Origin: Armatimonadota bacterium
GTDB lineage: Bacteria > Armatimonadota > UBA5829 > JAUSEB01
Assembly (NCBI GenBank): GCA_030649165.1
Contig: JAUSGG010000118.1
Coordinates: 1 to 54,966 of the forward strand
DNA length: 54,966 nucleotides
Reading direction: 5' to 3'
Under the pieces are notes generated by a model. That model was not told where the DNA came from. It saw only the letters and a list, made by a program, of their open reading frames with translations, and did not search any database. Both the position numbers and the translations under genes were made by a program. This document shows positions 9,808-31,989 of the stretch, piece by piece. The number at the start of each line of letters is the position of its first letter. Positions within the stretch are counted from its first letter, which is position 1.

Positions 9808-9866
9808 CTGGTAATATTACCAGTTTTTGCCGTGCCATATTGACACAACGGCCCGAATGATATAAT
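9808..9866 (+). promoter_or_regulatory. array gene A promoter with palindromic operator
   Basis: A perfect 16-bp palindrome, CTGGTAATATTACCAG (9808-9823), lies exactly 16 bp before a TTGACA -35 box (9840-9845). The -10 box TATAAT is at 9861-9866 with a short 15-bp spacer. This is the most symmetric of six operator copies and the only one without the conserved leader start. The gene begins about 840 bases downstream. Confidence 0.75.
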
Positions 9867-10710
9867 CTCCGTACAGGAGCATAAGGTTTCGTTGGGCGAG
9901 CCCGCGTCGCCGAGCGCGAGACCTTGAGCTAAATCGAAGAGAGAGGCACGAGGCGCGGGGCGAGGCTATTTTACTTGCCCGTGCCATTTCTCACATCTGC
10001 TTCACGGTAATCCTCAGCTTTGATTGCCTGTGGGAATAACGTGAGCCTCAGTATCTTCGACGCATCAGGATTCTTCCGCAGGCGCGAAATGGCTGTGACC
10101 AAGTCCTCAATCGCACCGCCGCCGGCCGGACGGCAGGATTGCGACGGCGACCAGCCGCACGAAGGGCGCGCGCGGCCGATCGGAACTGCGGGAGATGTAT
10201 GGATGACGCCGATAATCTAGCGTGTGAGGTTATGAGCTGGTTCTACCGGTTGTTTTCCCTCAGACAATGGAGAACGGCAGGATAAAGGGCCTGCGCCCGG
10301 GAGATTGTGGCGCGGGGCGTTCCGTGGAGGATTGGCTGCATCAGCGTAACAATTCAGGAACCCAGAGAGGATTCACCCTCACCCCAACCCTCTCCCCTCA
10401 AGGGAGAGGGGGCCATGCTCGTCTTCTGCCGAGGGCGGTGGGGCAACGACAGACGTACTCAACGATCCTGAACAGTTACGCATCAGAGCGGAAGCCGCGG
10501 GGCGTGGGCTCAACAGATTTGCAGCCGTGACGGGGGGAGGTGTCCGCCGAGAAGATAAGCTCCGCAAAACGGAGTTTGCCGTATCCCGCCCGCGCGAGCG
10601 GCGGCGCGTGGCGTGGTTAATGCAAGACAGCCGCAAGACAACGTTACTTCGTTTCAGGAAAACAGAAAAAACTACCTCACCTTTAGACACTTCGAAAGGA
10701 GGAAGGGAAC
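9867..10710 (+). promoter_or_regulatory. long leader region of array gene A
   Basis: There is no convincing gene in these 840 bases. A GGCCGGACGGC box (10124-10134) matches the box near the 3' end of the other array leaders. An element with inverted ends (10346-10479) is inserted in it. The region ends in AAAGGAGGAAGGGAAC before the TTG start. An open frame at 10020-10220 has no ribosome site and is not called. Confidence 0.5.
10346..10479. mobile_element. MITE-like element with C-rich palindromic core
   Basis: The ends are GTAACAATTCAGGAA (10346-10360) and TCCTGAACAGTTAC (10466-10479), a 12-of-14 inverted match. The core is the CACCCTCACCCCAACC / GGGAGAGGGG palindrome followed by GCTCGTCTTC. 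No coding capacity. Related copies are at 14549-14684 and 54431-54564. Confidence 0.6.
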
Positions 10711-13700
10711 TTGCGAAAGCTATGCTTTGTAGTAATGACGGCGCTGTTGCTGACGTGTCTCGGTTCAGCAGGACCGGTGACCGCGGAGCCGTCGAACCCC
10801 AATCACGGGGCCACACCCTTCTGGTTCTTCCAGGAAGGGTTCGAGTACGACACTACGGGTGATCTTCAGACGGTGTCCAACAACACTTGGATACAGAACC
10901 CGCTGGTTGCAAGCCAGATATTGGTTGAAGCGACCAATCCCTACGCCGGAGCCAAAGACCTGAATATCTCCGACCAGTTGACGGACGGAGCGGCGGAGAT
11001 GAACCTCGGGAGCTATTCGCCATCGTCGGGCATTATCTACTTCCACTTCAGGGTAAAGAGCCCCGCGCCGAACCCGGTGTCCGCAACCAACACGTACTAT
11101 ATTTACCTGTTGTCCAATAACGGCTACGAGTTCGGGCGCTGGTACGGCAACAATCGGCAGTTGACGCCGAGGGTCGGAGGCAAACTGCCTACCAACGTTC
11201 CCGGTGGGCTGCCAACATGGGGAAACGTCCCTCTGGCCACTGATAGTGGAGGCGGCGTGTACGTCAGCAACGGCTGGCATGAACTCGACTTTGTCCACGA
11301 CACGAACACTATGGTTACAACCTGGTACGCCGATGGCGTGGAAAAGTTCTCGCTCGACCTGAACGGGCCTAACGGCCTGACGGGCACCCCCCCCAACTAT
11401 CCCAGCACTGCCCTGCAAAAAGTGACCATCAGTGACGCGAGTCATGCGGGCCCTGATGGGACGTATCTGGTCTGGGACGATGTGGCAGTCGGGACCGACG
11501 TTGACGACTCGGTGCCCACGATTATCATGCCGGAAGACAACTGTTCGGGAGATGACCCGAGCACGTTCGTGTTTTCCGCTCTGGGCACGGAGCTGGATCC
11601 CACGAGCCTGGCGCCCACGATAGAGTGGACGGGACAGCCGCACACTCACTATCAGGTGAAGATATTCAACTTCAACACCACCAACCCCGACAGCGCAACC
11701 GGACTCGTATGGGATTCCACGCAGGTAACAAGCACGGAGGATTTCAGCGACGTGCCGAATGGAGTTCTGTCGGAAACGCCGACCTACTACGTGTATGTGC
11801 GGCTGAAGATAAATGGGGCATGGAAGGGCTGGAGCCCGGCCGGACGCGACTTCAAAGTGGAGGCGGATTCCATTCCGTCGCCGTTCACGCCGTATTTCAG
11901 CGGGGCAAGCCCTGCCGACGACGGTTGGTACAGGTCACTCTCCAACCTGCCTACGTTTGAATGGAGCATACCTCCGTTCGACGGTTTAGGAAATCCAACC
12001 CCGCCTCACCAGTCGTTCTGGTTGAGAATGGGAACTAACCCGAGTAATCCGACGGATTACGTGGACACGGACTGGGTCACGGGTCCGGATTCCCTGGACC
12101 TCGATTCGCTGCTGCCCGCTCCGCCCAGCCTGATCGAGGACCAGATATACTACGCCAGAGTCAGGGTCCGAAACGGATGTATGAGCGATGGAGACAGTTT
12201 CCCGTCCGACCCGATGATTCGGTTCAAGGTAACAGAAAAGCCTGTCGTGCTCAACGTCGCTCCCAATGGCGGCGCGTTCATAGGCACACAGACGCCGACT
12301 ATTACCTGGACGGTTGACTCCGGTTCGCCCACGGCGGTAACCGGCATACTGGTACGCGTCACCGACACGGCGGACTCGAGCCCGCCGCCGGGCGGCGTGG
12401 ACATTCCGTTCACTCAAACGGTATCGAGCGATCCGGGTTCCTTCACCATACCATCGGCTCTGCCCGCCAACAAGCACCTGTACGCGCACGTCCGGCTGAC
12501 AAACACGGCGGGCATGGGCGACTGGTCACCTAACGAGCAAGAAGGGTCATATCCGGCGGCCGTGGACCCGGGCGGATTCTACATCTACACGTCGCCGGCC
12601 AAGCCGGTGGTCACGGCTCCCGCGGGAACCTACACCGGCGCAAAGCCTATGGTCGTGTTCACTTCCGATGTGCACAACTTCGCGAGATGCAAGATCACGA
12701 CCGACGCGGGCGGAACCGCCGCGGTGTGGGATTCCGGAATGGTGACTACGACGGGAAGCGGCTTGCCGTGCACGATAGCGCTGGAGGATGGCCACACCTA
12801 CTATGCATTTGCCAAGGTGTCGAACCCGGCAGGCGAAAGCGTTTGGAGCGATCCTTCTTTGTTCCTCGTGGACCGCAATACGGAGATGACCGATCTTGTT
12901 GACGTACGGCATATGGACGAGGTCATCGCCGGCGAAAACATCCTCACCCACAACGCCGGGCCTCCCAACGACGGGTTCAACAAGGGTCTCCCCAATATGG
13001 GTGAGAACGTTGTGGTGTCGGCTCCGGCCCTGACTTACTGCGGGAAGAGCAACAGTATCGTCAGAATCGAGAACAACGACATCGGCAACGGCCACGACAT
13101 TCTCCGACTGCACAGAGTCGGTTTTCTGGATCTGAACAAGGGCGTGACGTTTATTGCGGCCGTGCGAGTTCAAGACCAGACGGACGGTGGCGCGTCAAAC
13201 GTGCCCCTCTGGCAGCAAGGCCAGATGATGGTAGTCGACAGTCCTACCGCGGGAGTTCGGGTTGGAGCCAGCTTCCGAGTTGAGGCGACTGAGGTGGGCA
13301 TCTGCACCGACAACACCTGGAGCACGGCGGCCAGGACGGACGACGCGAGCACGTTCGCCGTGATCCGTATAACCGGTAGAAACCAGTCTTACAACGACTT
13401 CTCCAGCACGTTGTGGAAACTGTATGTCAATGAGAGCGCGTCACCGGCTGTGACGGCGACCGGCACGATGGACGAGACGCTCCTCGATCCGAGCGTCGTC
13501 TGGATGCAGGACTGCGTCGTTATAGGACATGGCCATACGGGCCAGCTCGGCAACTGGGAGTATGACTGGACGGCCGTGAATGTGGGCGGCGACTACGCGC
13601 CGGGCGAGTGGGATTACGCGCTTGACGCATACGATCCCGTCACTACGGCAACGCGGCCCTGGAACGGCAGGTACGCGAGCATAGGCTCTGTGAAGGGCAA

Positions 13701-14364
13701 TGCCGAGACAATCTTCGCCAAATTGAACTCTCCGGCGGTTGTGACCAAGAGAGTCCTGGACGTTGGCGATGTCCAGGTGGCGTACTTTGCTCAAGACGAC
13801 ACGGGCGGCATTAGAATCAACAGCTCCGCGGCGGTAGCCGAAGGCCAGGCCATAACGGCTATCAATGGCGTCGTGCCGTGGTGGGTTGATTTCAGTGACA
13901 TTTCAACCGTGAGCCATCCGAATCCGCAGGCTGAGTTCAGCGCGGCGCAGGTGACGCTGTCTCCGGATACGCCGGGAGCGCCTGCTATCGCGCTTGCCCA
14001 GAAGAACCTGGGGACTTCTTGCCTGGATCAGAATCTGGGCAGCAGCTATGACACGATGGGAATGTTCGTGCGGATCTTCGGAAAACTGGTCTTCTACGAG
14101 TATGACGCAGGCTACGGCGCATCCGGGGCGTATATCTACTACGTCGATGACGGCTCCGGCGCAATCGACGGACGAGCCGCCGATCCCGCCATGGCGGGTA
14201 TCAGGATCGCCCGAGAATTCGCCATCGATCCCGGCCAACCGGATCCTCCAGCCATCGACAGCTACTGGATGATCGAAGGTATAGCGTCTTACGAAACGAC
14301 AACCGGACCCGACTACTTCCACGTCAGGAGCATCCTGATGCCGACTTTCACTCAGCTCAATTGA
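10711..14364 (+). CDS. giant secreted modular protein, array paralogue A
   Basis: The protein has 1217 aa. The TTG start at 10711 is chosen for its AAAGGAGGAAG site and because TTGCG-A/T-A-A starts recur in the paralogues. A signal peptide (RKLCFVVMTALLLTCLGSA) leads to a LamG-like beta-sandwich (about 38-262), four or five Ig/FN3-like modules (about 264-725), and a family-specific core (about 728-975). That core has V-RHMDE, LDLNKGVTF, RITGRNQ, LYVNE and APGEWD. Two OB-like C-terminal modules follow (about 985-1217), with IALAQKNLGTSC and YYVDDGSGAIDGR. No catalytic residues are recognised, so a polysaccharide-binding or surface role is inferred. It has no LPXTG, PEP-CTERM or other known anchor. 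It is the most diverged of the five copies and lacks their IPPPP end. Confidence 0.8.
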   Translation: MRKLCFVVMTALLLTCLGSAGPVTAEPSNPNHGATPFWFFQEGFEYDTTGDLQTVSNNTWIQNPLVASQILVEATNPYAGAKDLNISDQLTDGAAEMNLGSYSPSSGIIYFHFRVKSPAPNPVSATNTYYIYLLSNNGYEFGRWYGNNRQLTPRVGGKLPTNVPGGLPTWGNVPLATDSGGGVYVSNGWHELDFVHDTNTMVTTWYADGVEKFSLDLNGPNGLTGTPPNYPSTALQKVTISDASHAGPDGTYLVWDDVAVGTDVDDSVPTIIMPEDNCSGDDPSTFVFSALGTELDPTSLAPTIEWTGQPHTHYQVKIFNFNTTNPDSATGLVWDSTQVTSTEDFSDVPNGVLSETPTYYVYVRLKINGAWKGWSPAGRDFKVEADSIPSPFTPYFSGASPADDGWYRSLSNLPTFEWSIPPFDGLGNPTPPHQSFWLRMGTNPSNPTDYVDTDWVTGPDSLDLDSLLPAPPSLIEDQIYYARVRVRNGCMSDGDSFPSDPMIRFKVTEKPVVLNVAPNGGAFIGTQTPTITWTVDSGSPTAVTGILVRVTDTADSSPPPGGVDIPFTQTVSSDPGSFTIPSALPANKHLYAHVRLTNTAGMGDWSPNEQEGSYPAAVDPGGFYIYTSPAKPVVTAPAGTYTGAKPMVVFTSDVHNFARCKITTDAGGTAAVWDSGMVTTTGSGLPCTIALEDGHTYYAFAKVSNPAGESVWSDPSLFLVDRNTEMTDLVDVRHMDEVIAGENILTHNAGPPNDGFNKGLPNMGENVVVSAPALTYCGKSNSIVRIENNDIGNGHDILRLHRVGFLDLNKGVTFIAAVRVQDQTDGGASNVPLWQQGQMMVVDSPTAGVRVGASFRVEATEVGICTDNTWSTAARTDDASTFAVIRITGRNQSYNDFSSTLWKLYVNESASPAVTATGTMDETLLDPSVVWMQDCVVIGHGHTGQLGNWEYDWTAVNVGGDYAPGEWDYALDAYDPVTTATRPWNGRYASIGSVKGNAETIFAKLNSPAVVTKRVLDVGDVQVAYFAQDDTGGIRINSSAAVAEGQAITAINGVVPWWVDFSDISTVSHPNPQAEFSAAQVTLSPDTPGAPAIALAQKNLGTSCLDQNLGSSYDTMGMFVRIFGKLVFYEYDAGYGASGAYIYYVDDGSGAIDGRAADPAMAGIRIAREFAIDPGQPDPPAIDSYWMIEGIASYETTTGPDYFHVRSILMPTFTQLN

Positions 14365-14396
14365 TCTCTCGATAAGAGAAAACGATCAAGCTGGAC

Positions 14397-14426
14397 CGCG
14401 GGGCCCGGGACCTACCGGGCCCCGCG
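14397..14426 (+). terminator. hairpin terminator of array gene A
   Basis: CGCGGGGCCCGG and CCGGGCCCCGCG form a 12-bp stem with a small loop 33 bases after the stop. No T-run follows. Confidence 0.6.
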
Positions 14427-14432
14427 TCATTC

Positions 14433-14474
14433 AGAGGTTAGAAGTTAGACGTTGGAGGTTGGAAATCAGGGAGG
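14433..14474. repeat. heptamer-period repeat tract
   Basis: Six 7-mers: AGAGGTT, AGAAGTT, AGACGTT, GGAGGTT, GGAAATC, AGGGAGG. Confidence 0.8.
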
Positions 14475-14524
14475 GCGAACACAAGGTTCGCCCCTGAGAA
14501 GCGGGCGAACACAAGGTTCGCCCC
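14473..14524. repeat. two copies of a short GGGCGAAC hairpin repeat
   Basis: Copies at 14473-14494 and 14503-14524 have arms GGGCGAAC and GTTCGCCCC around ACAAG. Further copies are at 21966, 25998, 26543 and 26579, all in the intergenic gaps of the array. Confidence 0.85.
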
Positions 14525-14548
14525 TACAAGGGAACGACGGGGCTCGAG

Positions 14549-14684
14549 GTAAGAGTTCAGGAATGGGTAGAATTGTATCACCCTCACCCTAACCCTCTCC
14601 CGTCAAGGGAGAGGGGATTACGCTCGTCTTCTTCCGAGGACGGAGGAATAACAACCGACAGTCTACCTAATCGTGAACAGTTAC
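14549..14684. mobile_element. MITE-like element with C-rich palindromic core
   Basis: The ends are GTAAGAGTTCAGGAATGG and TCGTGAACAGTTAC, and the core has CACCCTCACCCTAACC with a GGGAGAGGGG arm. Length 136 bp, nearly that of the copies at 10346 and 54431. Confidence 0.6.
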
Positions 14685-14716
14685 GGCTCGGGGATTATTC
14701 CCGGGCCCCTTTTTTC
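14685..14716 (+). terminator. hairpin with T-run before promoter B
   Basis: GGCTCGGGG, loop ATTATT, then CCCGGGCCCC followed by TTTTTT. Similar hairpins precede the array promoters of C, D, the remnant and E, insulating each transcription unit. Confidence 0.65.
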
Positions 14717-14753
14717 GCCTGGCACGATTAACTATCCTGGGACCTTCTTTCCC

Positions 14754-14814
14754 CTGGTACAATTACCTGTTTTGGCCGGCGCATATTGACACTTGTCGGT
14801 TCCTGGTGTAACGT
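14754..14814 (+). promoter_or_regulatory. array gene B promoter with operator
   Basis: Operator CTGGTACAATTACCTG (14754-14769), 16 bp, TTGACA (14786-14791), 17-bp spacer, weak -10 TAACGT (14809-14814). The gene starts about 400 bases downstream. Confidence 0.7.
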
Positions 14815-14938
14815 CACTAATAGGGATGGTGGCTCGACTGATCGTTTGTGCATCGGTTACTTCCTCTCGAGCGTCCACCCCAAGAGCGCCGACAAGCTCT
14901 GCCATTGCCGAAATAGACGCCGCGGGCCGGACGGCGCG
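14815..14938 (+). ncRNA. conserved 5' leader of array gene B
   Basis: The leader contains GGTGGCTCGACT (14828-14839), a complementary TCGAGC (14867-14872) that pairs with GCTCGA (14832-14837), and the GGCCGGACGGCGCG box (14925-14938). The same three elements occur in order in the leaders of C, D and E, with a partial match in the remnant. A structured regulatory RNA is inferred, not shown. Confidence 0.5.
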
Positions 14939-15219
14939 TTGAGCGACGGCAGGGATTGCAGCGACTGTCGGATGCCTATCCGTTTGGCGCAACGCGAAGC
15001 AATAAGTCGGGCTGACGCCCATCTCGGGCCTTCTCACCGACGGGTTGCTTACGTCGGTCAGGGACTGACCGGCGGGGCTCGATCTGAGTGAACGCCAAAC
15101 GGTATCACCCGACGGCGGAACGGCTCTCGAACCGACTGAAGAATCGGAACTTGTCTTACAAAACGGTATCAGGCAGGCTGGGAGTCAACAAGGAGCCTGC
15201 CCAAAGGAGGAAGAGGATA

Positions 15220-18123
15220 ATGCGCAGATATTACTTTCTGGCAATCGCGCTGCTGTTAATAGCAGCGCCGGCGGCGCCGTCTTTCGCAGCCAGCGTAAGC
15301 GTGACCATTCGGGACACCACCCCACTCGGCGACGGCACGGCAGTGATAGACGGCGGGCTTCGGTCCGACGGCGGGGCCGACGGGAATATTGGAAACAGCT
15401 ACGGCACCGGCTCAGCGCGCCTACACCCGGATATTGGCTGGCCGGGCGGCAAAGGCCCTCGGCATTTCATAATCAGGTTCGAGGTGTCCGGCGTCGTTCC
15501 GCCCGGCACTGTGATTGACTCGGCCACGTATGGCCTTTTAGCGGAAGCTAGCGGCAGCGCCCACAACATCACCGACTATAAGCTTTCCCGAGTCATGAAC
15601 GGCATGGACTGGATCGAGGGAATTGGAGCCTATCCGACAGCCAATCCGGGTGAGGTTACCTGGAACAGCCGGAAGCACGCGATAGCGCTATGGCAGGTGG
15701 CCGGGGCGAGCGGCGCGGCTGACGTCGATCTGGCTACTTCCATAACCTATGCCATAACCGGGGGAGGTTGGCAGACCTACAACGTCACGAGTTGGGCCCA
15801 GGATTGGATCAACGGCGCGTGGGACAACAACGGTATGGTGATGTGGGGAGGGAATGACCTCGCCCCAGGGACAAGCTACTATTGGGCTCGCACCAGTGAG
15901 GAACCGGTTGTCGATGTGCGCCCTTACCTGACGATCACCTGGAACGATAGCGCCCCATTAGTTACGGCCCCAATCGGTGGCGTAGAGCTGAATACCCAGA
16001 CGCCTACAGTCACTTGGGACAGTTACACCACAGGCGTAATCAACCACCAGGTCGTCGTCTGCACCGCCGACGCAGCAACCACGTCGGGTGACCCGGCAAA
16101 TGTCTACGACAGCGGCACGGTCGCCGGCAACGCCACATCCGCTGTTACCGGTTCTCTTCCGATCGACACCCAACTATATGCATTTGCCCGCGAAGAGACG
16201 GCAACCGGGTGGACTCCGTGGTCGCCGGCCGGCAACGGCGGATTCCACATCAAGATAGATCCGCCCGCCGCTCCGACAGTGACCGACCCAGCCGGAACCA
16301 TAGCGACACCCAAGCCGTTTGTCATCTTTATGGGTGACGCTCATTTGCGCTATGTCGTGAGGATATTTACCAGCGATGTGGCTGATCCTGAGAATGCGGC
16401 TTTCGTTGTCAATTCCGGAGTTGTCGAATCGAGCGGGTTCCTGTACACCGTTACGGACGTTCTGGCGGACGGCAGTTACTTCGCGTTCGCCAAGATTGGC
16501 AACGCGGCCGGCTGGAGCCCCTGGAGCACAGGTCAGGCTTTCACCGTGGCGACCGGGACAGCGACAGTAGACGTCATGCACATGGACGAGATCAAGGGAG
16601 GGCTGAGCATCCTTGATATCGACGACCCAGGCCCAATGAACCTGCCGACGTCGGGCGATGGCGTCAAACACTCTCTAGGAATGGACGTCAATGGCGTCAT
16701 CGTCAACAGTTGGTTTGAAGAAGCCTGCACCGTCTCGTTGACAACTCCCCTCTGCGGCAACGTAGCGCTGGAGATCAGCGACGCGGGAACAGGCGCCGAC
16801 AGCAGAGTAATGAGAGTGCACAAGATAGGCAGCAGCACGGACTACAGCCTCTTGGACCTCGACAGAGGCATCACCTTCGCGTTCGCGGTGGCCGCTCTTA
16901 GCCAAACCGGAGGCGACTCCGCCGGCGCAAGCTGGCGCACGGCGAACGCCATACTGATGGACAAAGACTCCCTGGGCGAGACCCACTTCGCCTGCCTGAG
17001 GACCTATCCCGGCGGAATCGGCCTCATATGTGACGACGACAGAGCGGATGACGACTCCGGCTCCGGCTGGGGCGCCCACTGGGCCGGCCTGTCGTCCTCG
17101 AACGACTACCGCATAATCCGTCTAACCGGACGCAATCAAGTTCCGGGCGACTACAATTCCACACTGTGGAAGGTCTATCTCGACGAGAACCCGGCTCCTA
17201 TTCTGCAAGGCGCCGGTACCGCCACGGGTAGCGTGCAAGACTCCGGCATTATCTGGCAGACTGACGCTATTGCGCTGGGTTATGGAGGCAAGAGCTCGAC
17301 GTGGCACGGCCTGTTTGACTGGACCGCGGTAAACGGTGGCTGTGACTACGCCCCCGGCGAGTGGGATCCCAACGGCGGTGGTGGAGCCTACGCCAGCATC
17401 GGGGCAGCCAAGGCCGGCGGCGTAGAGGTTCGGCCAGTCACGATCAGCGGATCTATGGTAATCACCAAGGTCGTGACTCACGAAGACGTCAACCCGACCC
17501 CGCCTCCTGACACGATCACCGTCCAGGATGGCTTCTACCTTCAGGACGTAGCGGCCGGAGGAAAGAGCCTGGCCGGCGTCAAGATACTGACCTCGAACAC
17601 CCAGGGCGGAGCGGTCGCGGTCGGAGCGCGGGTAACGGCCATCAGCGGCATTATGGTCGAGCAGACCGGAGGCCGGGTGATATCAAATGCATCCGTGACC
17701 ATAGTGGGCGTTGCCACGTTCGCGCCTGTTGCGATGGCTCAGAAAGCGCTCTACGGTCCGTGCATCACTCAGAACCTGGGCAGCAGCTCCGATACGACCA
17801 GCATGATGGTCAGGTTCTTCGGCAAGTGCACGCTGAACGGTTTCGATCCCAACTGGGGCTCCGCCGGCGCTTACGTGTTCTACATCGATGACGGCTCCGG
17901 CGCCGTGGACGGCAGAGAGGAAGGCGGCACAGGCATTCGCTGTCTGTACGACGCAAGCGATCCTCTGTTCATCCCGCCGGACATTGGCAACTACCTGATG
18001 ATCGAAGGTATAGTCTCTTACGAGCATGCCATGACAGCGGACATTCCGCCCGTGGACCTCGGCAACGTAAGGACGATACTGTTCCCGAGTTACACTACTC
18101 TCTACATTCCTCCGCCCCCGTAG
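15220..18123 (+). CDS. giant secreted modular protein, array paralogue B
   Basis: The protein has 967 aa. The ATG at 15220 follows AAAGGAGGAAGAGGATA; the open frame further upstream lies in the leader. A signal peptide (RRYYFLAIALLLIAAPAAP) is followed by a DNRLRE/CBM96-type beta-sandwich (about 23-243; TTPLGDGTA at its start and WAQDWINGAWDNNGMV near its end). Two Ig/FN3-like modules (about 245-445) precede the family core (about 447-715; VDVMHMDE, LDLDRGITF, RLTGRNQVPGDYNSTLWKVY, APGEWD). Tandem OB-like modules (about 723-967; TVQDGFYLQD, VFYIDDGSGAVDGRE) lead to the tail YIPPPP. DNRLRE domains bind carbohydrate in characterised members, so a secreted polysaccharide-binding role is likely. 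The 3' end and terminator are almost identical DNA to those of C and D. Confidence 0.85.
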   Translation: MRRYYFLAIALLLIAAPAAPSFAASVSVTIRDTTPLGDGTAVIDGGLRSDGGADGNIGNSYGTGSARLHPDIGWPGGKGPRHFIIRFEVSGVVPPGTVIDSATYGLLAEASGSAHNITDYKLSRVMNGMDWIEGIGAYPTANPGEVTWNSRKHAIALWQVAGASGAADVDLATSITYAITGGGWQTYNVTSWAQDWINGAWDNNGMVMWGGNDLAPGTSYYWARTSEEPVVDVRPYLTITWNDSAPLVTAPIGGVELNTQTPTVTWDSYTTGVINHQVVVCTADAATTSGDPANVYDSGTVAGNATSAVTGSLPIDTQLYAFAREETATGWTPWSPAGNGGFHIKIDPPAAPTVTDPAGTIATPKPFVIFMGDAHLRYVVRIFTSDVADPENAAFVVNSGVVESSGFLYTVTDVLADGSYFAFAKIGNAAGWSPWSTGQAFTVATGTATVDVMHMDEIKGGLSILDIDDPGPMNLPTSGDGVKHSLGMDVNGVIVNSWFEEACTVSLTTPLCGNVALEISDAGTGADSRVMRVHKIGSSTDYSLLDLDRGITFAFAVAALSQTGGDSAGASWRTANAILMDKDSLGETHFACLRTYPGGIGLICDDDRADDDSGSGWGAHWAGLSSSNDYRIIRLTGRNQVPGDYNSTLWKVYLDENPAPILQGAGTATGSVQDSGIIWQTDAIALGYGGKSSTWHGLFDWTAVNGGCDYAPGEWDPNGGGGAYASIGAAKAGGVEVRPVTISGSMVITKVVTHEDVNPTPPPDTITVQDGFYLQDVAAGGKSLAGVKILTSNTQGGAVAVGARVTAISGIMVEQTGGRVISNASVTIVGVATFAPVAMAQKALYGPCITQNLGSSSDTTSMMVRFFGKCTLNGFDPNWGSAGAYVFYIDDGSGAVDGREEGGTGIRCLYDASDPLFIPPDIGNYLMIEGIVSYEHAMTADIPPVDLGNVRTILFPSYTTLYIPPPP

Positions 18124-18192
18124 TATGGCGGAAGCGAATATCTGACTAACCGACATGGGGCTCGGGGATTATCCCGGGCCCCATTTCTTGGC
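18124..18192 (+). terminator. terminator of array gene B
   Basis: After a sequence shared by B, C and D (GTATGGCGGAAGCGAATATC), a hairpin GGGGCTCGGG-GATTAT-CCCGGGCCCC (18157-18182) is followed by ATTTCTT. Confidence 0.75.
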
Positions 18193-18252
18193 CTGGTACA
18201 ATTACCTGTTTTTCCTATCGGGTGTTGACATCATGCACAGAGTCAGTATAAC
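18193..18252 (+). promoter_or_regulatory. array gene C promoter with operator
   Basis: Operator CTGGTACAATTACCTG (18193-18208), 16 bp, TTGACA (18225-18230), 16-bp spacer, TATAAC (18247-18252). A near-consensus sigma70-type promoter. Confidence 0.8.
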
Positions 18253-18386
18253 CTTCCAAATAGGAGTGGTCGCTCGACTCGTTGGCAGTTTGACGCCGAC
18301 CGTCCCCGTCCCGAGCGGGCCGCACGACACAAATAGTCCTCAACCCTGTCTATGCCGAGGCGCAGCGTCGCAGGCCGGACGGCGCG
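18253..18386 (+). ncRNA. conserved 5' leader of array gene C
   Basis: ATAGGAGTGGTCGCTCGACTC (from 18260), CGCTCG (18271-18276) paired by CGAGCG (18312-18317), and GCAGGCCGGACGGCGCG ending at 18386. The rest of the leader to the TTG start (about 190 bases) is less conserved. No leader ORF is evident. Confidence 0.55.
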
Positions 18387-18578
18387 CACACTTGGATTGG
18401 CACAGATGAGGGACTTTCACACGGCGACAGCAGCCGAGCGTTGTGCCTGACGAAGAAGGATGACTGCCCGGATTCTCGAACCGCGCGATGTTTCGCCGCT
18501 GCCGCGGACATTACACGACGCCGTGCGCGTTCAGCCGGCGTACAATTGCAAGGATGAACTCGAAAGGAGAGGATGATC

Positions 18579-21500
18579 TTGCGAAAATACTACATAGCCA
18601 CAGTCTCAGTCTTGGCGGTTGCTCTGTTAGCGGGCGCGGCCGCTGCCCTGACCAATCCGGTCACGGGCTTAACGGCGACACCGCAGGGAGGGATAACGAC
18701 TGTATCGTGCAGGTTGAACTTCTCGCTTCCGGCGGATCCCGATGTGGTCGGAGCCAGGGTCGTAGTCAACGGCTCCAATGATCCGACGGGACCGGGGAGC
18801 CCGGTTCCCGGCGGCGGCGCGGACGGCGTGGTGGTCGCTGATGTCGCAGGAGCGCCCAGCGCGGCTTGCACCGCGACTTACAATGTCCCAATAGCTCAGA
18901 TGGGCAGAGTCTTCTGGTATCGCATCTGGACCTACGACGCAACCGGCGCCTATTGTTCGGTGTCCGCGGGCATCACGTCGAGAATGCTGGTCAGCGCACT
19001 GGAGATCAAGGATACTACGCCTCTCGGGCTCGGGACGGCCATCGAGGATTCGCCGCTCCGTGGAGACTGGCCCAACTGCAATATCGGACAGAACGGTGGT
19101 GACAGGCAGTGGCGCATGTTCGCTGATTCGTGCCCTGTACAGCGCCACAACTTGTTGAAACTCGACGTGTCCCTCATACCGCCGGGTATGGAGATCGCCT
19201 CCGCAAATCTCGGCATCTACATTCGCCGATACAACTCCGTCGCTACAGTGAACGGTTACCAGATATCGAGGCTGAATCCCGGCAAGAGCTGGGTCGAGGG
19301 CGAGGATGATTTCTCCGACCCAGATTACCCACAGGGGTCACCTCCAACCGGCGAGTATCCAATCCGAGCCGGTGACGTTACCTGGAACGAGCAGGGGTAC
19401 TTCGACGGCTTGACAACCGCGACCGGCAACTGGGCCACGCCCGGCGCGACCGGCGCGGCCGACATCGACCTTGCTACTTCCGTTAGCTGGGACCAGCCGG
19501 GCGGCGGCGCCGACCCAGGGTATAGGTCATTCGATCTGACAGCTTTTGTCCTTGACTGGGTCAATGGCGTCTGGGAGAACAACGGTATTCTGTTCTGGGG
19601 AGGGACCGCGGATCCCCCGACAACCGGCAACACGAACTACAACTGGGGATATCTCAGCGAGTCGACATCCATGGATCGTCGGCCGGCGCTGAAGATCTTC
19701 CAGGAAGCTCATACCCCCCACCTTACCGCGCCGATCGGCAACCCGGAGCTTAGCACGCCCACGCCCACAATTACGTGGCTTAGCTACGCCGATGGAACGG
19801 TAATCAACCACCAGGTAAGGGTCTGCTCCACCGATGATCCGTCAGCGTCCGTGGTATACGACAGCGGCGCGATCTCGGGCAACGCTACCTCCGCTGTCTC
19901 CGGCGCTCTTGCAAATGGCTCATATTGGGCGTTCGCGAACGAAGAGACGGCAAGCGGATGGGTCGGGTGGTCGGCGACAGGCAACGGCGGATTCCGCATT
20001 GCCGTAGTTGCGCCGGCGCAGCCAGTCATCACCTCGCCGACTGGAATAATCGCAGACCCGAAGCCAATGGTATTGTTCCCGGGCGCGGGCGCCCACACCA
20101 GTCTCCAGATGAAGATATTCACCTCGAATGTGGGTGATCCGGAGACAGCTACCGCTTACTACGATTCCACGGTCCTTGCCTCAGCGGCCAATAGCTGCCC
20201 GTCCGGAATGTTGCCGAATGGCGATTATTGGGCGTTCGTAAAAATCGCGAACGCGGCCGGTTGGAGCCCCTGGAGCGCGGGCAAGGCGTTCACAGTCAGC
20301 CGCGCTGATTGGGTCGACGTGCTGCACATGAACGAGACCGTGCCCGACTTGCTTGTCGCGGACAATCCCGGCGGCACGGCAGCCTGGACCGGAACCGTTC
20401 TCACCAATCCAAGCAATCAAGACGGCTTCGCCCACGAGATACTCGACGGCACCGAGAATGTCTGGTCGGTGGATTTCGAATCCGGAGCTTGTGGCGCAAC
20501 AAGCGCAAACAAGCTGCTGATTGTGGAAAACCCGAATCCCGGTGGTGGATCGACAGGTCATAGCAGATCTATGAGAATTCACAAGTGCCAGGATGAGATC
20601 GATCTCGACCGCGGCGTCACCTATATTTGGGAGTTGGCCGTTGAGAACGGGACGAAGGGCACGATCCACGGCGGCAAGCCCTGGATCATTGGCACAATCT
20701 ATGTGGCGGATAAGGATCCGAGTGGCGTTTTCCGCATGGTCTCCGTCAGGTGCAGGCCTGACTCCGTTGGAATAGTATCAAACCAGACGGCCGCCATTAC
20801 TCCCGCTGTCGAGCCTGGCGGTTACACCTTGCAGTCCCTGCCGTTCTCAGAAGGCTTCAGGCGATTCCGCCTGACAGGACGCAACCAGATTGCGGGCGAC
20901 TACAACAGCGCCCAATGGACCCTCTACGTCAATGACGTCGAGACGCTGACATCCACCGGCACGTATGTGGACAACACATACGATGTTGATTTCGTGTCGG
21001 CCGGCGTCGGAGAGTCGAATATACATGGCAAATGGTCATTCGACTGGATCGCCGTCAACGGAGGCGGCGACTACGGTCCGGGCGAGTGGGATCCGATCCC
21101 CGCATCGCAGTCGACATTCACGAGCATAGGCGCGGCCAAGATAGCGACTGTAGGAAATCGATCCGTCACTATCAACGGACCCGCGGTTATCACCAAGGTT
21201 CTGACTCACGTCGATCCGGGCCCTGACGCAATACCTGGTACTGCTGATGACGTGACCGTTCAGGACGGCTACTACGTTCAGGACATAGCGGCCGGAGGCA
21301 AGACTCTGGCCGGCGTCAAAGTACTCACCTCCGACGCTCAGGGCGGAGCGGTCGCGGTCGGAGCGCAGGTAACGGCCATCAGCGGCACTATGGTCGAGCA
21401 GACCGGGGGCCGGGTGATAGCAAATGCGTCCGTGACGCTAGGGGGTATTGCCACGTTCGCGCCTGTTGCGATGGCTCAGAAGGCGCTCTACGGTCCGTGC

Positions 21501-21869
21501 ATGACCCAGAACCTGGGCAGCAGCTCCGACACGACTTACATGATGGTCAGAGTGTTTGGAAGGTGCACGCTGTCCGGCTTCGATCCCAACTGGGGCGCGG
21601 GCGGCGCGTTCGTGTTCCACGTCGATGACGGCTCCGGAGCCGTCGACGGCAGAGACGGAGGCGGCACAGGCATTCGCTCTCTGCACGACGCAACCGATCC
21701 TGGGTTCGTCCCGCCCGGCGTAGGCGACTACCTGATGATCGAAGGTATAGCCTCCTACGAACTCGCTGAAATATATGCGGGCGAGCCGCCGGTCCTGGTC
21801 GAGAGTAAGAACGTAAGGACTATTCTCTACCCGACTTACACTACTCTCTACATTCCTCCGCCCCCGTAG
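18579..21869 (+). CDS. giant secreted modular protein, array paralogue C
   Basis: The protein has 1096 aa. TTG at 18579 is preferred over ATG at 18573 because AAAGGAGAGG is then correctly spaced and RKYYIA aligns with the other copies. After the signal peptide (RKYYIATVSVLAVALLAGA) come an FN3-like module (about 26-139), a DNRLRE/CBM96-like module (about 141-370; TTPLGLGTA, FVLDWVNGVWENNGIL), two Ig/FN3-like modules (about 372-570) and the family core (about 575-838; VDVLHMNE, IDLDRGVTY, RLTGRNQIAGDYNSAQWTLY, GPGEWD). Tandem OB-like modules (about 845-1096) end in YIPPPP. The second half of the gene is close in DNA sequence to D (for example 21421-21505 against 25451-25535). Binding of extracellular polysaccharide is inferred. 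Confidence 0.85.
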   Translation: MRKYYIATVSVLAVALLAGAAAALTNPVTGLTATPQGGITTVSCRLNFSLPADPDVVGARVVVNGSNDPTGPGSPVPGGGADGVVVADVAGAPSAACTATYNVPIAQMGRVFWYRIWTYDATGAYCSVSAGITSRMLVSALEIKDTTPLGLGTAIEDSPLRGDWPNCNIGQNGGDRQWRMFADSCPVQRHNLLKLDVSLIPPGMEIASANLGIYIRRYNSVATVNGYQISRLNPGKSWVEGEDDFSDPDYPQGSPPTGEYPIRAGDVTWNEQGYFDGLTTATGNWATPGATGAADIDLATSVSWDQPGGGADPGYRSFDLTAFVLDWVNGVWENNGILFWGGTADPPTTGNTNYNWGYLSESTSMDRRPALKIFQEAHTPHLTAPIGNPELSTPTPTITWLSYADGTVINHQVRVCSTDDPSASVVYDSGAISGNATSAVSGALANGSYWAFANEETASGWVGWSATGNGGFRIAVVAPAQPVITSPTGIIADPKPMVLFPGAGAHTSLQMKIFTSNVGDPETATAYYDSTVLASAANSCPSGMLPNGDYWAFVKIANAAGWSPWSAGKAFTVSRADWVDVLHMNETVPDLLVADNPGGTAAWTGTVLTNPSNQDGFAHEILDGTENVWSVDFESGACGATSANKLLIVENPNPGGGSTGHSRSMRIHKCQDEIDLDRGVTYIWELAVENGTKGTIHGGKPWIIGTIYVADKDPSGVFRMVSVRCRPDSVGIVSNQTAAITPAVEPGGYTLQSLPFSEGFRRFRLTGRNQIAGDYNSAQWTLYVNDVETLTSTGTYVDNTYDVDFVSAGVGESNIHGKWSFDWIAVNGGGDYGPGEWDPIPASQSTFTSIGAAKIATVGNRSVTINGPAVITKVLTHVDPGPDAIPGTADDVTVQDGYYVQDIAAGGKTLAGVKVLTSDAQGGAVAVGAQVTAISGTMVEQTGGRVIANASVTLGGIATFAPVAMAQKALYGPCMTQNLGSSSDTTYMMVRVFGRCTLSGFDPNWGAGGAFVFHVDDGSGAVDGRDGGGTGIRSLHDATDPGFVPPGVGDYLMIEGIASYELAEIYAGEPPVLVESKNVRTILYPTYTTLYIPPPP

Positions 21870-22034
21870 TATGGCGGAAGCGAATATCTGACTAACCGAC
21901 ATGGGGCTCGGGGGATTATCCCGGGCCCCATTTTTCGGCGACAATCCCGATACACCGGGAATGGCGGGCGAACACAAGGTTCGCCCCTACGACAAGACGG
22001 GGCCTGGGATCATTCCCGGGCCCCGTTTCTTGGC
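21870..22034 (+). terminator. terminator region of array gene C, two hairpins
   Basis: The first hairpin is GGGGCTCGGG...CCCGGGCCCC with ATTTTT (21903-21934). A GGGCGAAC hairpin repeat follows (21966-21987). A second hairpin, GGGGCCTGGG-ATCATT-CCCGGGCCCC (21999-22024), has a T-rich tail and abuts the next operator. Confidence 0.75.
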
Positions 22035-22094
22035 CTGGTACAATTACCTGTTTTTTCCGCTGGATATTGACAGTTCGGGCAAAGTTAGTATAAC
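22035..22094 (+). promoter_or_regulatory. array gene D promoter with operator
   Basis: Operator CTGGTACAATTACCTG (22035-22050), 16 bp, TTGACA (22067-22072), 16-bp spacer, TATAAC (22089-22094). Confidence 0.8.
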
Positions 22095-22230
22095 CTGTCT
22101 TATAGGAGAGGTCGCTCGACTCGTCGAAGTTCAACCCCGGCGGGGAATCCCCTCCCGAGTGTACCGCCCGATTCAATAGTCCCTAACCTGGTTCTGTTCT
22201 CAAGCGCAGTGTCGCAGGCCGGACGGCGCG
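22095..22230 (+). ncRNA. conserved 5' leader of array gene D
   Basis: ATAGGAGAGGTCGCTCGACTC (from 22102), CGCTCG (22113-22118) opposite CGAGTG (22156-22161; one G-U pair), an ATTCAATAGTCCCTAACCTGG block shared with the remnant leader, and GCAGGCCGGACGGCGCG ending at 22230. Another 370 bases separate it from the start codon, with no gene seen. Confidence 0.55.
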
Positions 22231-22599
22231 CGCGTGAGATGAGGATACGGGTCAAGGACGCGCACCTTGGTGTCAGCAGCCGAAACCGTCGCCCAACAGC
22301 AAGAACATCTGCAGAGCAGGGGGCGGCAGCGCCGATAATGTGTAGGAAGGGACTTCGCGGGGAAATCCCAGGGCGAGTCTCCTCCCAGGCGATTGACACG
22401 TTAGTAACAGAGCTAGAACGCTTTGCGACTGGTGGTCGGAAAACCCATGGGAGGTGATAGCCCAGCAGTTAAGGCGCTGGTACGTGCGTGGTTTTTTGCC
22501 AGGCGGTTCTACCGCTTGGCGCAAGTGATAACACCGTCTGAAAATCAGGCGGCGAATGAAATCCAAAGGCTTCGAAATTCCGAAAGGAGGAAGAGGATT

Positions 22600-25500
22600 T
22601 TGCGAAAATATCTTATTATCGCAATATCGGTTTTAGCAATTGCTCTGCTTGCCGGTCCGTCGGTGTGGGCGCTGAACAGCTCCGTAGTCGTTAGCGATAC
22701 CATACCTGCTACCATGACTATGGGCACGACGTACACACCGACCGTGAAGATGCGGAACTCCGGTGATACGACGTGGGCCGACGTTGCGGGCTGTACTTTC
22801 CCATCTGGTCCATTCGACTACAACTTTGGGCCGCCGGATGTCGGCGACCCCTGGAACAAAGCAGCCGAATGGGGGCCAAGAACCAACATCGGCGCAATAC
22901 CGGTTGGCCCGGGCGAAGAGATAACGTTCACGCTCAGCATTATGCCAAACGCCCCGGGCACGTTTCCCTGCAGGTGGCGGATGGTGCACGAGTGCCTAGA
23001 GTGGTTCGGCGCCGAACTCGCCAGGACAATAACGGTAGAGTGCGGACCGCCGGCGGCGGACACGGTGAAGTGGGCGGACAACTTCGACACTTACACACCG
23101 AACGGCATGCTCAACGGCGCGTTGACCCCGCCGGATAACCCGGAGGTTGATAACGATGGAGATCCCGGTTGGATACTGAGAGACGGCTCTCAGAACAGCA
23201 GCCAGATAAACATTGTGGACGACGCGATTGCCGGTAAGAATGTCGAGGTCGTCAACATCTTTGGCAACACCCTGGACTCGCGCGTTCAGGTCGCAAGCTG
23301 GAGCCCGTCCTGGAATACAGGCGACAACGGGAATAGGGCCAAGTTCCACTTCAAGGTCAAGAGCGGCGGCACCGCCGTGGGCACCACGTTGTGGCGACTG
23401 TACATGAGAGACTGGATCGACGGCGGACGGCCATACTTCGCCATCACGGGCACCGACCAGTCATTAACGCCGATGACAGCCATCAACAGCGATGGGCAGG
23501 CTCCTACCCTGACGGCTCAGGATATCAGCGACGGGGCGTGGCACACCGTCGATATCATCATGAACACGTCGAATGACGGCGCGCCCGATGACCTGAGTTA
23601 CTACTACTTCGACGGCAATTACATTGGTGTCCTCGCGCACGATGGCGGACTGAACCAGCAGAACAAAGTGCGCACCGTGGAGATCTGGCAGTACGCGCAG
23701 AGCGGTCAGCCAACGAGTAGTGTGCTGTTGGACGACATGGTTGTGAGCACCGCGCTTGGGCTCCCGGTCAACACGATCACCTCCCCGACCCCCGGCTACG
23801 TATTCGGGACGCTGACACCGACAATCACGTGGACCCGCGCGTGGAGCTGCTACGATGTGGCGGCCACTCAGGTGATAGTGGTCTCCGGCACGGCTGATCC
23901 CGTAACCGGGACCCTTGAGTGGGACAGTGGAGACGTGTCAGGCGCCAACCTCAGCCAGGTAACCGGCTCGCTTCCGAACGCAACGCCTCTGTGGGTGTTC
24001 CAGCGCGACAAGCTGACCGGCGGCGGTTACAACCCCTGGACGGACGCCAGAGCGTTCAGTTGCTCAGTTACACCGCCCGTGATCGGCGATGTGACGGGTC
24101 CGGTTGGAATCCAGTGCACCGGAAAGCCGGTTGTCACTTTCACGGGCGATCCTCACAGTTTGGTGCAGATAAGGCTTACTTCGGATGCCGGCGGAGTCAA
24201 CGAGGTAGCGAACACCGGCGAAGTCGCCTCGTTCGCATTTGCACAGGCAGTCGGACCGCTTGATTCCGGCACATACTACGCATGGGCAAGGATCGGAGGC
24301 GGCGCGGGATGGAGCGCTTACAGCGCCAACGTGTTTTCGTTCGTCGTGGACCGCGGTTGTGAAGTTGTAGACATTCGGCACTTCAACGAGACCGATATTC
24401 TGACGACGAACCTGCCCGCTCCGGACGACGGTTTCGCTGAGAGATTCACCAACTTCGACGACGGCGCAGGCACGAGCTGCGACGTCTGGATCACTACTCC
24501 CGTGTGCGGCGACCAGGCGATGTGGGTCAACGACCGCGGCGCGGCCAGATCGCTCAGACCGCACAGGATTCAGAATATCGATCTCGATCAGGGCGTGACC
24601 TTGCTCGTAGCGGTTGCTAACCCGATCCATGCCGGAAACGACGGCGGCGGCGCGAGCTGGCGCATGGCGAATGTGTGGATTGGAGACAAGGACGCCGGCG
24701 GTGAAACTCATATGGTATCCGTCAGAGTTCAGGATGACTTTGTGGGTATCATCACCGAGGCGACTAAAGCTACCGAGGCATGGGGCAATGGATTCACCAA
24801 TGTCGTATTGCCGAACTCGACCGATTACCGGATATTGCGAATAACCGGGCGCAACGCGGTCGCGGGTGACTACGATTCGGCGGTCTGGAACATCTACGTC
24901 AATGAGAACCCGACCGCTGTGCTGACTCGCACGGGAACATTCTCAGTAGGCCAGGTTGAGTCCGAGCCCCCGTATCAGCTCGAATACAGAGAGTGCGACC
25001 AGATAGCCCTCGGACAGGGAAGTGGAGACTCCACTGGCGATCCGAAACCACCGCCCCCTACAGGCGACTGGTATTATGACTGGGTAGCCGTGAACGGCGG
25101 CGGCGACTACGCACCCGGCCAGTGGCCATCCGGCGCCAGCGGCTCTTACGCGAGCATTGGCGCGGCCAAGTCGGTCGGCGTAGAGTCGATCCCGGTGAGC
25201 ATCACCGGTAACGCGGTTATCACCAAGGTTCTGACTCACGTCGATCCGGGCCCTGACGCAATACCTGGTACGCCTGATGACGTGACCGTTCAGGACGGTT
25301 ACTATGCTCAGGACGTAGCGGCCGGAGGCAAGAACCTGGCCGGCGTCAAGATACTGACTTCGGACGCCCAGGGCGGAGCGGTTGCGGTCGGAGCGCAGAT
25401 CACCGCTGTCAGCGGCGTTATGAGGGAGCAGGCCGGAGGTCGGGTGATAGCAAATGCGTCCGTGACGCTAGGGGGTATTGCCACGTTCGCGCCTGTTGCG

Positions 25501-25902
25501 ATGGCTCAGAAGGCGCTCTACGGTCCGTGCATCACTCAGAACCTGGGCAGCAGCTCAGACACGACCAGCATGATGGTCAGGTTCTTCGGCAAGTGCATGC
25601 TGTCGGGCTTCGATCCCAACTGGGGCACCTGCGGGGCCTACGTCTTCTACATCGATGACGGCTCCGGCGCGGCGGATGGCAGAGAGTTGATCGACGGCCT
25701 TCCGGTTCCCGGAATCCGTTGTCTGCAGGACGCTTGCGATCCTCTGTTCATCCCGCCGAGCCCGGGTGACTATCTGATGGTCGAAGGCATAGTCTCTTAC
25801 GAGCATGCCATGACAGCGGACATTCCACCCGTGGACCTCGGCAACGTAAGGACGATACTGTTCCCGAGTTACACTACTCTCTACATTCCTCCGCCCCCGT
25901 AG
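22600..25902 (+). CDS. giant secreted modular protein, array paralogue D
   Basis: The protein has 1100 aa. The TTG at 22600 follows AAAGGAGGAAGAGGAT; the open frame extends further upstream but into the leader. A signal peptide (RKYLIIAISVLAIALLAGP) leads to an NBR1-type Ig-like module (about 27-146; VVVSDTIPATM, PGTFPCRWRMVHE-x4-WFG). A LamG-like module (about 155-385; NFDTYTPNG at its start, VLLDDMVV at its end) and two Ig/FN3-like modules follow (about 388-583). The family core (about 586-842; VDIRHFNE, IDLDQGVTL, RITGRNAVAGDYDSAVWNIY, APGQW) and tandem OB-like modules (about 850-1100, ending YIPPPP) complete it. The NBR1-type module also occurs in the GH99-like and GH9 proteins at 47-54 kb, linking this array to carbohydrate degradation. 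No catalytic site seen. Confidence 0.85.
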   Translation: MRKYLIIAISVLAIALLAGPSVWALNSSVVVSDTIPATMTMGTTYTPTVKMRNSGDTTWADVAGCTFPSGPFDYNFGPPDVGDPWNKAAEWGPRTNIGAIPVGPGEEITFTLSIMPNAPGTFPCRWRMVHECLEWFGAELARTITVECGPPAADTVKWADNFDTYTPNGMLNGALTPPDNPEVDNDGDPGWILRDGSQNSSQINIVDDAIAGKNVEVVNIFGNTLDSRVQVASWSPSWNTGDNGNRAKFHFKVKSGGTAVGTTLWRLYMRDWIDGGRPYFAITGTDQSLTPMTAINSDGQAPTLTAQDISDGAWHTVDIIMNTSNDGAPDDLSYYYFDGNYIGVLAHDGGLNQQNKVRTVEIWQYAQSGQPTSSVLLDDMVVSTALGLPVNTITSPTPGYVFGTLTPTITWTRAWSCYDVAATQVIVVSGTADPVTGTLEWDSGDVSGANLSQVTGSLPNATPLWVFQRDKLTGGGYNPWTDARAFSCSVTPPVIGDVTGPVGIQCTGKPVVTFTGDPHSLVQIRLTSDAGGVNEVANTGEVASFAFAQAVGPLDSGTYYAWARIGGGAGWSAYSANVFSFVVDRGCEVVDIRHFNETDILTTNLPAPDDGFAERFTNFDDGAGTSCDVWITTPVCGDQAMWVNDRGAARSLRPHRIQNIDLDQGVTLLVAVANPIHAGNDGGGASWRMANVWIGDKDAGGETHMVSVRVQDDFVGIITEATKATEAWGNGFTNVVLPNSTDYRILRITGRNAVAGDYDSAVWNIYVNENPTAVLTRTGTFSVGQVESEPPYQLEYRECDQIALGQGSGDSTGDPKPPPPTGDWYYDWVAVNGGGDYAPGQWPSGASGSYASIGAAKSVGVESIPVSITGNAVITKVLTHVDPGPDAIPGTPDDVTVQDGYYAQDVAAGGKNLAGVKILTSDAQGGAVAVGAQITAVSGVMREQAGGRVIANASVTLGGIATFAPVAMAQKALYGPCITQNLGSSSDTTSMMVRFFGKCMLSGFDPNWGTCGAYVFYIDDGSGAADGRELIDGLPVPGIRCLQDACDPLFIPPSPGDYLMVEGIVSYEHAMTADIPPVDLGNVRTILFPSYTTLYIPPPP

Positions 25903-26062
25903 TATGGCGGAAGCGAATATCTGACTAACCGACATGGGGCTCGGGGATTATCCCGGGCCCCATTTTTCGGCGAAAATCCCGATATACCGGGAATGGCGGG
26001 CGAACACAAGGTTCGCCCCTACGACAAGACGGGGCCTGGGATCATTCCCGGGCCCCTTTTTT
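25903..26062 (+). terminator. terminator region of array gene D, two hairpins
   Basis: The 3' untranslated sequence copies that of B and C. Hairpin one is 25936-25961 with a T-rich tail, a GGGCGAAC repeat is at 25998-26019, and hairpin two is 26031-26056 followed by TTTTTT. Confidence 0.75.
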
Positions 26063-26065
26063 CGC

Positions 26066-26125
26066 CTGGTATAATTACCTGTTTTGGCCGGCGCATATTG
26101 ACAGTATGCGCAGAGTTAGTATAAC
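26066..26125 (+). promoter_or_regulatory. operator and promoter of the gutted array copy
   Basis: Operator CTGGTATAATTACCTG (26066-26081), 16 bp, TTGACA (26098-26103), 16-bp spacer, TATAAC (26120-26125). The promoter is fully intact although the gene behind it is nearly gone. Confidence 0.8.
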
Positions 26126-26394
26126 CTTCGGTACAGGAGTGATCGCTCGACCCGTCGTACTTCATGCCGACGGGAACCCCCTCCCGAACATATCGCTGAT
26201 TCAATAGTCCCCTAACCTGGCTCTGCTCTTAAGCGCAGCGTCGCGGGCCGGATGGCGCGGGTGTGCGGCAGATACTGGTCAGGAACGCACATGCGCTGTC
26301 GCTGAAACTGTTGCCCAAGCACACAGTATTACGCTGAAGAGCGAGAAGGGACGGCGCCGAAATACGTGGGAAGAGGTTCGTGGAATTCCGAGCG
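26126..26394 (+). ncRNA. leader of the gutted array copy
   Basis: Closely related to the D leader: TACAGGAGTGATCGCTCGAC, ATTCAATAGTCCCCTAACC, AAGCGCAGCGTCGC, GGCCGGATGGCGCG (26246-26259), and a GGCGCCGA...GTGGGAAGAGG stretch matching D at about 22330-22352. The distal arm reads CGAACA instead of CGAGCG, so the pairing is weakened here. Confidence 0.5.
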
Positions 26395-26523
26395 ATGATC
26401 GAAGGTATAGCCTCCTACGAACTCGCTGAAATATACGCGGGCGAGCCTCCGGTCCTGGTCGAGACCAAGAACGTAAGGACTATTCTCTACCCGATTTACA
26501 CGATACTGGCGACCGGCATCTGA
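26395..26523 (+). pseudogene. gutted array paralogue, last 42 codons only
   Basis: The reading frame MIEGIASYELAEIYAGE continues for 42 codons to TGA. It matches the C-terminal end of paralogue C (21730-21840) with only a few base differences, then ends LATGI like E (LATGM) rather than YIPPPP. It is joined directly to a complete promoter and leader. A single internal deletion of roughly 3 kb in a former full-length copy explains this. There is no ribosome site before the ATG, so translation is doubtful, and the product would lack a signal peptide. Confidence 0.75.
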
Positions 26524-26542
26524 TATAGCCGTAGTCAGAAGG

Positions 26543-26639
26543 GGGCGAACACGAGGTTCGCCCCTACGATACACCGGCGGGCGAACACAAGGTTCGCCCC
26601 TACAAAGAAACGATGGGGCTCGGGATTATCCCGGGCCCA
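26543..26639 (+). repeat. two GGGCGAAC hairpin repeats and terminator hairpin
   Basis: Copies at 26543-26564 (loop ACGAG) and 26579-26600, followed by a GGGGCTCGGG-ATTAT-CCCGGGCCC hairpin (26615-26639). The last one insulates promoter E. Confidence 0.75.
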
Positions 26640-26648
26640 CTTTCCCAC

Positions 26649-26709
26649 CTGGTACTAATACCTGATTTTTGCCCATGCCATTGACATTGGCCTGTAGTTG
26701 ATGTAATTT
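26649..26709 (+). promoter_or_regulatory. array gene E promoter with operator
   Basis: Operator CTGGTACTAATACCTG (26649-26664), 16 bp, TTGACA (26681-26686), 17-bp spacer, weak -10 TAATTT (26704-26709). Confidence 0.7.
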
Positions 26710-31947: not shown

Positions 31948-31989
31948 GTCGTTCCTCCCGGATCGCATATTGAGGTTGGTTGCCGGGAT

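Follow-up and report, generated by a model that had tools for sequence, protein, structure and literature searches.

The window analysed here, a 54,966-nucleotide stretch of an Armatimonadota genome (assembly GCA_030649165.1, contig JAUSGG010000118.1), carries six copies of an operator-promoter module together with genes for large secreted proteins. The palindromes related to CTGGTANNANTACCWG that the initial annotation had placed at 9808, 14754, 18193, 22035, 26066 and 26649 are all present, and in 6/6 cases exactly 16 bp separate the 16-mer from TTGACA, which a -10-like box follows after 15–17 bp, as had been described. The features are as follows.

9808–9823, + strand: operator 1, perfect palindrome CTGGTAATATTACCAG, then TTTTT
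9840–9872, + strand: promoter 1, TTGACA at 9840–9845 and a TATAAT-like -10 box 15–17 bp on
10711–14364, + strand: gene 1, 1217-aa secreted protein with signal peptide and an Ig-like Rha78A_N match; leader of about 0.84 kb
14754–14769, + strand: operator 2, CTGGTACAATTACCTG, then TTTT
14786–14820, + strand: promoter 2, TTGACA at 14786
15088–18123, + strand: gene 2, 1011-aa frame with signal peptide and DNRLRE domain; likely start at an internal ATG, giving a protein of about 967 aa
18193–18208, + strand: operator 3, CTGGTACAATTACCTG, then TTTTT
18225–18258, + strand: promoter 3, TTGACA-N16-TATAAC
18573–21869, + strand: gene 3, secreted protein of 1098 aa, paralogous to genes 2, 4 and 6
22035–22050, + strand: operator 4, CTGGTACAATTACCTG, then TTTTTT
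22067–22100, + strand: promoter 4, TTGACA-N16-TATAAC
22423–25902, + strand: gene 4, secreted paralogue in a 1159-aa frame, with an internal TTG as probable start that gives a protein of about 991 aa
26066–26081, + strand: operator 5, CTGGTATAATTACCTG, of a unit reduced to a leader and a C-terminal remnant
26098–26131, + strand: promoter 5, TTGACA-N16-TATAAC
26394–26523, + strand: remnant of a paralogue's C-terminal coding end, 95% identical to unit 3 across 108 bp
26649–26664, + strand: operator 6, CTGGTACTAATACCTG, then ATTTTT
26681–26715, + strand: promoter 6, TTGACA-N17-TAATTT
26983–30705, + strand: gene 6, 1240-aa secreted paralogue

A weight-matrix scan of the window returned these six as its only strong sites (scores 31–35), the next-best score of 14 falling on the opposite strand of site 1. 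Units 2–6 (14754–30705) are tandem duplicates: the 3′ parts of units 2–4 share 80–82% DNA identity over about 0.9 kb and about 70% with unit 6, and the leaders of units 3–5 are 73–78% identical. Operator 5 has no intact gene, its leader running into the C-terminal remnant and then into the module at 26649. The six copies are therefore not independent observations, and with five of them in duplicated units, one gene-less, the window alone overstates the case. The window proteins match DNRLRE or Ig-like domains, and no PEP-CTERM ends were found in the window's own module proteins.

The unit leaders have sequence blocks in common, among them ATAGGAGTGGTCGCTCGACTCGTCG right after the start and GCAGGCCGGACGGCGCG further downstream (14820–14960, 18255–18400, 22095–22240, 26126–26260 and 26710–26840, also near 10125). 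An RNA element was rejected as an explanation, because the window gave no Rfam match and the conserved leader block had no copy elsewhere among the fetched loci. Copies of the short repeat GGCGAACACAAGGTTCGCCCCTAC are numerous between the units (intergenic, near 14480, 21960, 25995, 26545 and 26590), and immediately upstream of operators 3–6 lie stem-loops of the form GGGGC...GGGCCCC, which are probable terminators of the preceding gene. Elsewhere in the window, a family B DNA polymerase match (37459–39645, - strand) is found near a DNA polymerase III beta-clamp gene (30847–32472); polymerases of this family are less usual on bacterial chromosomes.

Searches allowing up to 3 mismatches, with the reversed pattern as control, found 16–19 full modules in the source genome against 0 for the control. 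Across this Armatimonadota class there are about 110, spread over 21/28 genomes, against 1 control match; no full module was found in 263 Armatimonadota genomes outside the class. The palindrome with its T-tract is present in 22/28 class genomes, and the bare palindrome CNGGTANWWWTACCNG occupies at least 41 distinct places in the source genome (68 strand hits against 2 for the controls). The operator-promoter module of the initial annotation is borne out as real. At four loci (L004 on source-genome contig C169, L117 in G003:C140, L101 in G027:C7 and L087 in G020:C11) two complete operator-promoter copies stand 137–242 bp apart before one gene. A further element (approximately ACGCTC) lies between the palindrome and a distant -35 box in G022:C94, G004:C13 and source-genome contigs C46 and C61, and several sites of this type precede sulfatase-modifying-factor-like secreted genes.

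To avoid bias, spacing was examined in 94 palindrome+TTT sites gathered without requiring a promoter. TTGAC follows at 15–17 bp in 33/94 of these, at 25–28 bp in 13, at 35–39 bp in 8 and at 49 bp in 3, against a chance expectation of 0.12 per position. Successive peaks, at 16, 26–27 and 36–39 bp, are separated by one helical turn, and the sites beyond the main peak are phased as in a 10.5-bp helix (matched in 0/20,000 uniform draws). A second set comprised 137 palindromes for which no T-tract was required, taken from fetched loci partly chosen for the 16-bp spacing; a -35/-10 pair accompanies 82/137, at distances of exactly 0 bp (7 sites), 15–17 bp (43), 26–28 bp (15) and 35–40 bp (11), with none at 1–10 bp. 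The 0-bp sites, which abut the -35 box, occur in the source genome and in genome G020. The 16-bp spacing, first described as invariant, is hence the main class but not the sole one.

The logo of 84 non-redundant sites reads CHGGTANWWWTACCWG-WTTT-N12-TTGACA-N17-TATAAT, with a 17-bp -10 spacer at 66/84 sites. Its promoter-proximal half is the more strictly kept, T11, C13 and G16 being present in 84/84; at the positions that correspond to lux-box ends, T is found at position 2 in 57% and A at position 15 in 30%. With a 17-bp spacer the palindrome centres fall at about -59.5, -70 and -80.5, the first bearing out the earlier placement near -60, and those of the 0-bp group at about -43.5. Such centres are the class I and class II activator positions of CRP-type promoters, and by this geometry the sites are placed as for activators and not as for repressors. 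The helical series at 16, 26–27 and 36–39 bp and the class II group at 0 bp likewise uphold the earlier view that an activator is likelier than a repressor. Counting against an activator, nearly perfect TTGACA/TATAAT promoters are less activator-dependent than usual.

A palindrome followed by T's also resembles a terminator, and the duplication of units 2–6 could suggest an inert repeat spread in this way. We consider it extremely improbable that the element is a weak intrinsic terminator or such a repeat: its half-sites need not pair (CTGG...CCTG), which together with the fixed phase to the -35 box led to the rejection of an intrinsic terminator, and the fixed, phased spacing recurs at unrelated genes in many genera.

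Targets were defined as the first open reading frame downstream, and secretion was called by a hydrophobicity rule of thumb rather than a trained predictor. A secreted-type N terminus was assigned to 76/87 targets, compared with 50/120 other open reading frames under a similar rough rule. PEP-CTERM (exosortase-sorted) ends are carried by 38/87 targets (44%) compared with 16/361 neighbours (4%). Targets have a median length of 288 aa, which makes the giant proteins of the window a minority among them; the regulon of giant secreted proteins envisaged in the initial annotation holds up as genome-wide and secreted, and does not hold up as one of giants. Exopolysaccharide-related targets include a gene for polysaccharide biosynthesis in the source genome and, in G020, one for polysaccharide export, the latter with one palindrome upstream and about 4 kb from an exosortase gene. 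Exosortase is present in 24/28 class genomes, and no site scoring at least 17 was found near exosortase genes in 30 exosortase loci. The regulon would thus comprise secreted and PEP-CTERM proteins generally; luxR genes, two genes for GntR-type regulators and some exopolysaccharide genes would also belong to it.

The two GntR-HTH regulator genes, both in the source genome (L216 1802–2944 on C218, and L396 on C8), have the palindrome at 27 and 39 bp upstream of TTGAC, and one is shown with a LacI-type sensor domain; the regulon may in this way feed into sugar regulators. Palindromes without a phased promoter also lie upstream of open reading frames that by eye are putative DnaA and sigma-54 genes (L410 on C233 and L398 on C25 of the source genome).

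Were the palindrome bound by a repressor at -60, whether GntR/LacI-type or another, the sites near these two GntR-type promoters would fit, as would a second palindrome covering the -10 box of a luxR promoter in G020. The G020 case does indicate that some sites may repress. As a general account, however, this is very unlikely, since the main sites lie outside the core promoter with helical phase extending to 36–39 bp, and the 0-bp class leaves the -35 box free. The two GntR-type genes are targets, but GntR and LacI proteins would be ill suited to class I/II activator positions and are not favoured as the factor. Of the regulator types suggested earlier (GntR, LacI, MarR or other), the three named ones are not the best candidates; a stand-alone LuxR/GerE-type protein is preferred.

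The candidate is encoded in the source genome at C147:18557-18808. It matches PF00196 (E 4.8e-20, 71 bits against a cut-off of 23.5) and consists of the HTH alone, the autoinducer-binding domain being absent. Its HTH matches the GerE structure 1fse (E 1e-12), and its closest families are MadR, PedR, EpsA and GerE. Orthologous proteins of 84–87 aa, 67–98% identical to the source-genome copy and here termed group A, are found in 22/23 motif-bearing genomes; the exception, G023, is a fragmented genome, 80% complete, that has a close paralogue. Every motif-bearing genome of the class has small LuxR/GerE proteins, and the five motif-less ones have none: PF00196 is absent from G006, G008, G013 and G016, and G024 has weak sigma-factor-like hits alone. 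Losses of the motif within the class are few, at about 3 independent events.

The correlation extends beyond the class, where 22 distinct bare palindromes were found in 11 genomes with an A-like protein against 3 in 17 without (Mann-Whitney p=0.0014, genomes being taken without regard to kinship). Counting against the candidate, four of the 11 have no palindrome and the others few, although the A-like proteins of other classes have the same recognition helix as those in the class. There too several palindromes precede PEP-CTERM genes, two of them (L431 and L395) abutting TTGACA or TTGGCC.

Regulator genes with their own sites, which the initial annotation had proposed to look for, are found in some genomes. 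Some luxR promoters carry sites: those of group D genes in G020 and G027, of a divergent pair in G020 and of one gene in G023. In G027 the group D promoter has CTGGTAATTTTACCAG-N15-TTGACA. The divergent small-luxR pair of G020 (L354/L249/L327, G020:C4 near 16,460) has CCAGTAAATTTACCAG-N15-TTGACA and, in the same promoter, a second palindrome over the -10 box, an arrangement that would fit activation with feedback repression. Against the candidate, the promoter of group A itself has no site in most genomes.

We weighed two other families of factor against this candidate. A CRP/FNR-family activator would suit the 5-N4-5 geometry TGGTA-N4-TACCA and the class I/II positions. CRP is the standard example of a factor whose class I sites are helix-phased and which also uses class II sites, and in G014 one site has a CRP-like gene about 1.1 kb upstream of it. 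This is nevertheless quite unlikely: LuxR tracks the motif and CRP does not. Six motif-bearing genomes (G026, G027, G002, G004, G015 and G011) lack a clear CRP-type HTH, having weak other-family-like hits or none, and on this ground CRP/FNR was rejected as the regulator.

The second alternative is a different transcription factor, kept by the same set of genomes and acting as the regulator, with LuxR merely co-occurring. Three families were searched class-wide for co-occurrence, CRP, GerE and exosortase; this scope leaves room for such a factor, as do the small number of independent losses and the fact that exosortase, too, nearly tracks the motif. G013, however, has exosortase yet neither LuxR nor the motif, the LuxR-motif correlation holds outside the class, and luxR promoters themselves carry sites. 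We judge a different conserved factor to be unlikely.

The reading we favour, and think probable from the sequence evidence, is that the palindrome is the activator site of a stand-alone LuxR/GerE-type factor controlling an extracellular-matrix and surface regulon. The 16-bp CHGGTANWWWTACCWG, usually with WTTT adjoining it towards the promoter, would be bound by a dimeric activator working with sigma-70-type RNA polymerase. At most targets the dimer would lie on one DNA face, at about -59.5 or one or two turns upstream (about -70 and -80.5), and act by the class I mode, reaching the alpha C-terminal domain; in the smaller group, where the site abuts the -35 box with its centre near -43.5, class II activation is predicted. 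The factor would most likely be the single-domain HTH protein of 84–87 aa in group A, and close paralogues with an almost identical recognition helix perhaps act alongside it. We infer binding and activation, and the choice among LuxR paralogues, from these sequence relationships. The factor would switch on the genes for secreted and PEP-CTERM proteins as well as some exopolysaccharide genes; in some genera, luxR genes belonging to the factor's own family would also be among its targets.

More tentatively, and at somewhat under even probability in our estimate, a sensor-less LuxR-type protein of 85 aa may control the extracellular matrix globally across Armatimonadota by class I/II activation. 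Its targets would be the genes for exosortase-sorted and other secreted proteins, those for exopolysaccharide and members of its own gene family. Literature searches found no described regulon of such a type for Armatimonadota. The operator is defined, as are rules for its promoters; together with dozens of targets per genome and a single named candidate regulator, this opens a global switch for surface and matrix proteins to immediate testing. Shared control also lets many uncharacterised secreted proteins be grouped.

The proposed system shares features with several known ones. The class I/II promoters of E. coli CRP likewise combine helix-phased sites upstream with another site position at the -35 box, although CRP-type proteins here do not track the motif. 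As in lux boxes, the site abuts or precedes the -35 box, and perfect copies have outer CTG-N10-CAG; the CT(N12)AG ends of classical lux boxes (PMC4338825) are, however, missing at most sites, and the protein is without an autoinducer-binding domain. Small single-domain LuxR HTH proteins are known in PedR of cyanobacteria and GerE of B. subtilis. PedR, a stand-alone LuxR protein, activates, represses and controls its own operon (PMC13421787), but its motif RWWTRGGYNNYY has only a GGY core in common with the site described here, its targets differ, and the match to the PedR model (NF052366) reaches 52–57 bits against a cut-off of 120. EpsA (TIGR03020), the XrtB/PEP-CTERM-associated LuxR-type protein, likewise ties a LuxR-type HTH to PEP-CTERM and exosortase, and its HTH part matches groups A and D; its model, however, spans 247 positions with an N-terminal part, whereas the proteins here are the HTH alone and score 50–53 bits against a cut-off of 170.

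The closest parallel in logic is proteobacterial. In Proteobacteria a DNA site precedes most PEP-CTERM genes and is associated with sigma-54 and PrsK/PrsR (Haft et al. 2006, PMC1569441), and RpoN dependence of one gene in a proteobacterial PEP-CTERM system has been reported (PMC9850573). In both systems one DNA site precedes many PEP-CTERM units that consist of a single gene and have long leaders, there is a link to exopolysaccharide, and matching phylogenetic profiles led to the regulator, here a candidate. Here, in contrast, the -24 (GG)/-12 (GC) promoter of the PrsK/PrsR box is replaced by TTGACA-N17-TATAAT of sigma-70 type, with a 16-bp palindrome at class I/II positions, and the candidate is LuxR-type, whereas PrsR is an NtrC-type response regulator. 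If the more tentative, phylum-wide reading is right, PEP-CTERM regulation would have been solved in a second way, next to the sigma-54/PrsK-PrsR system of Proteobacteria.
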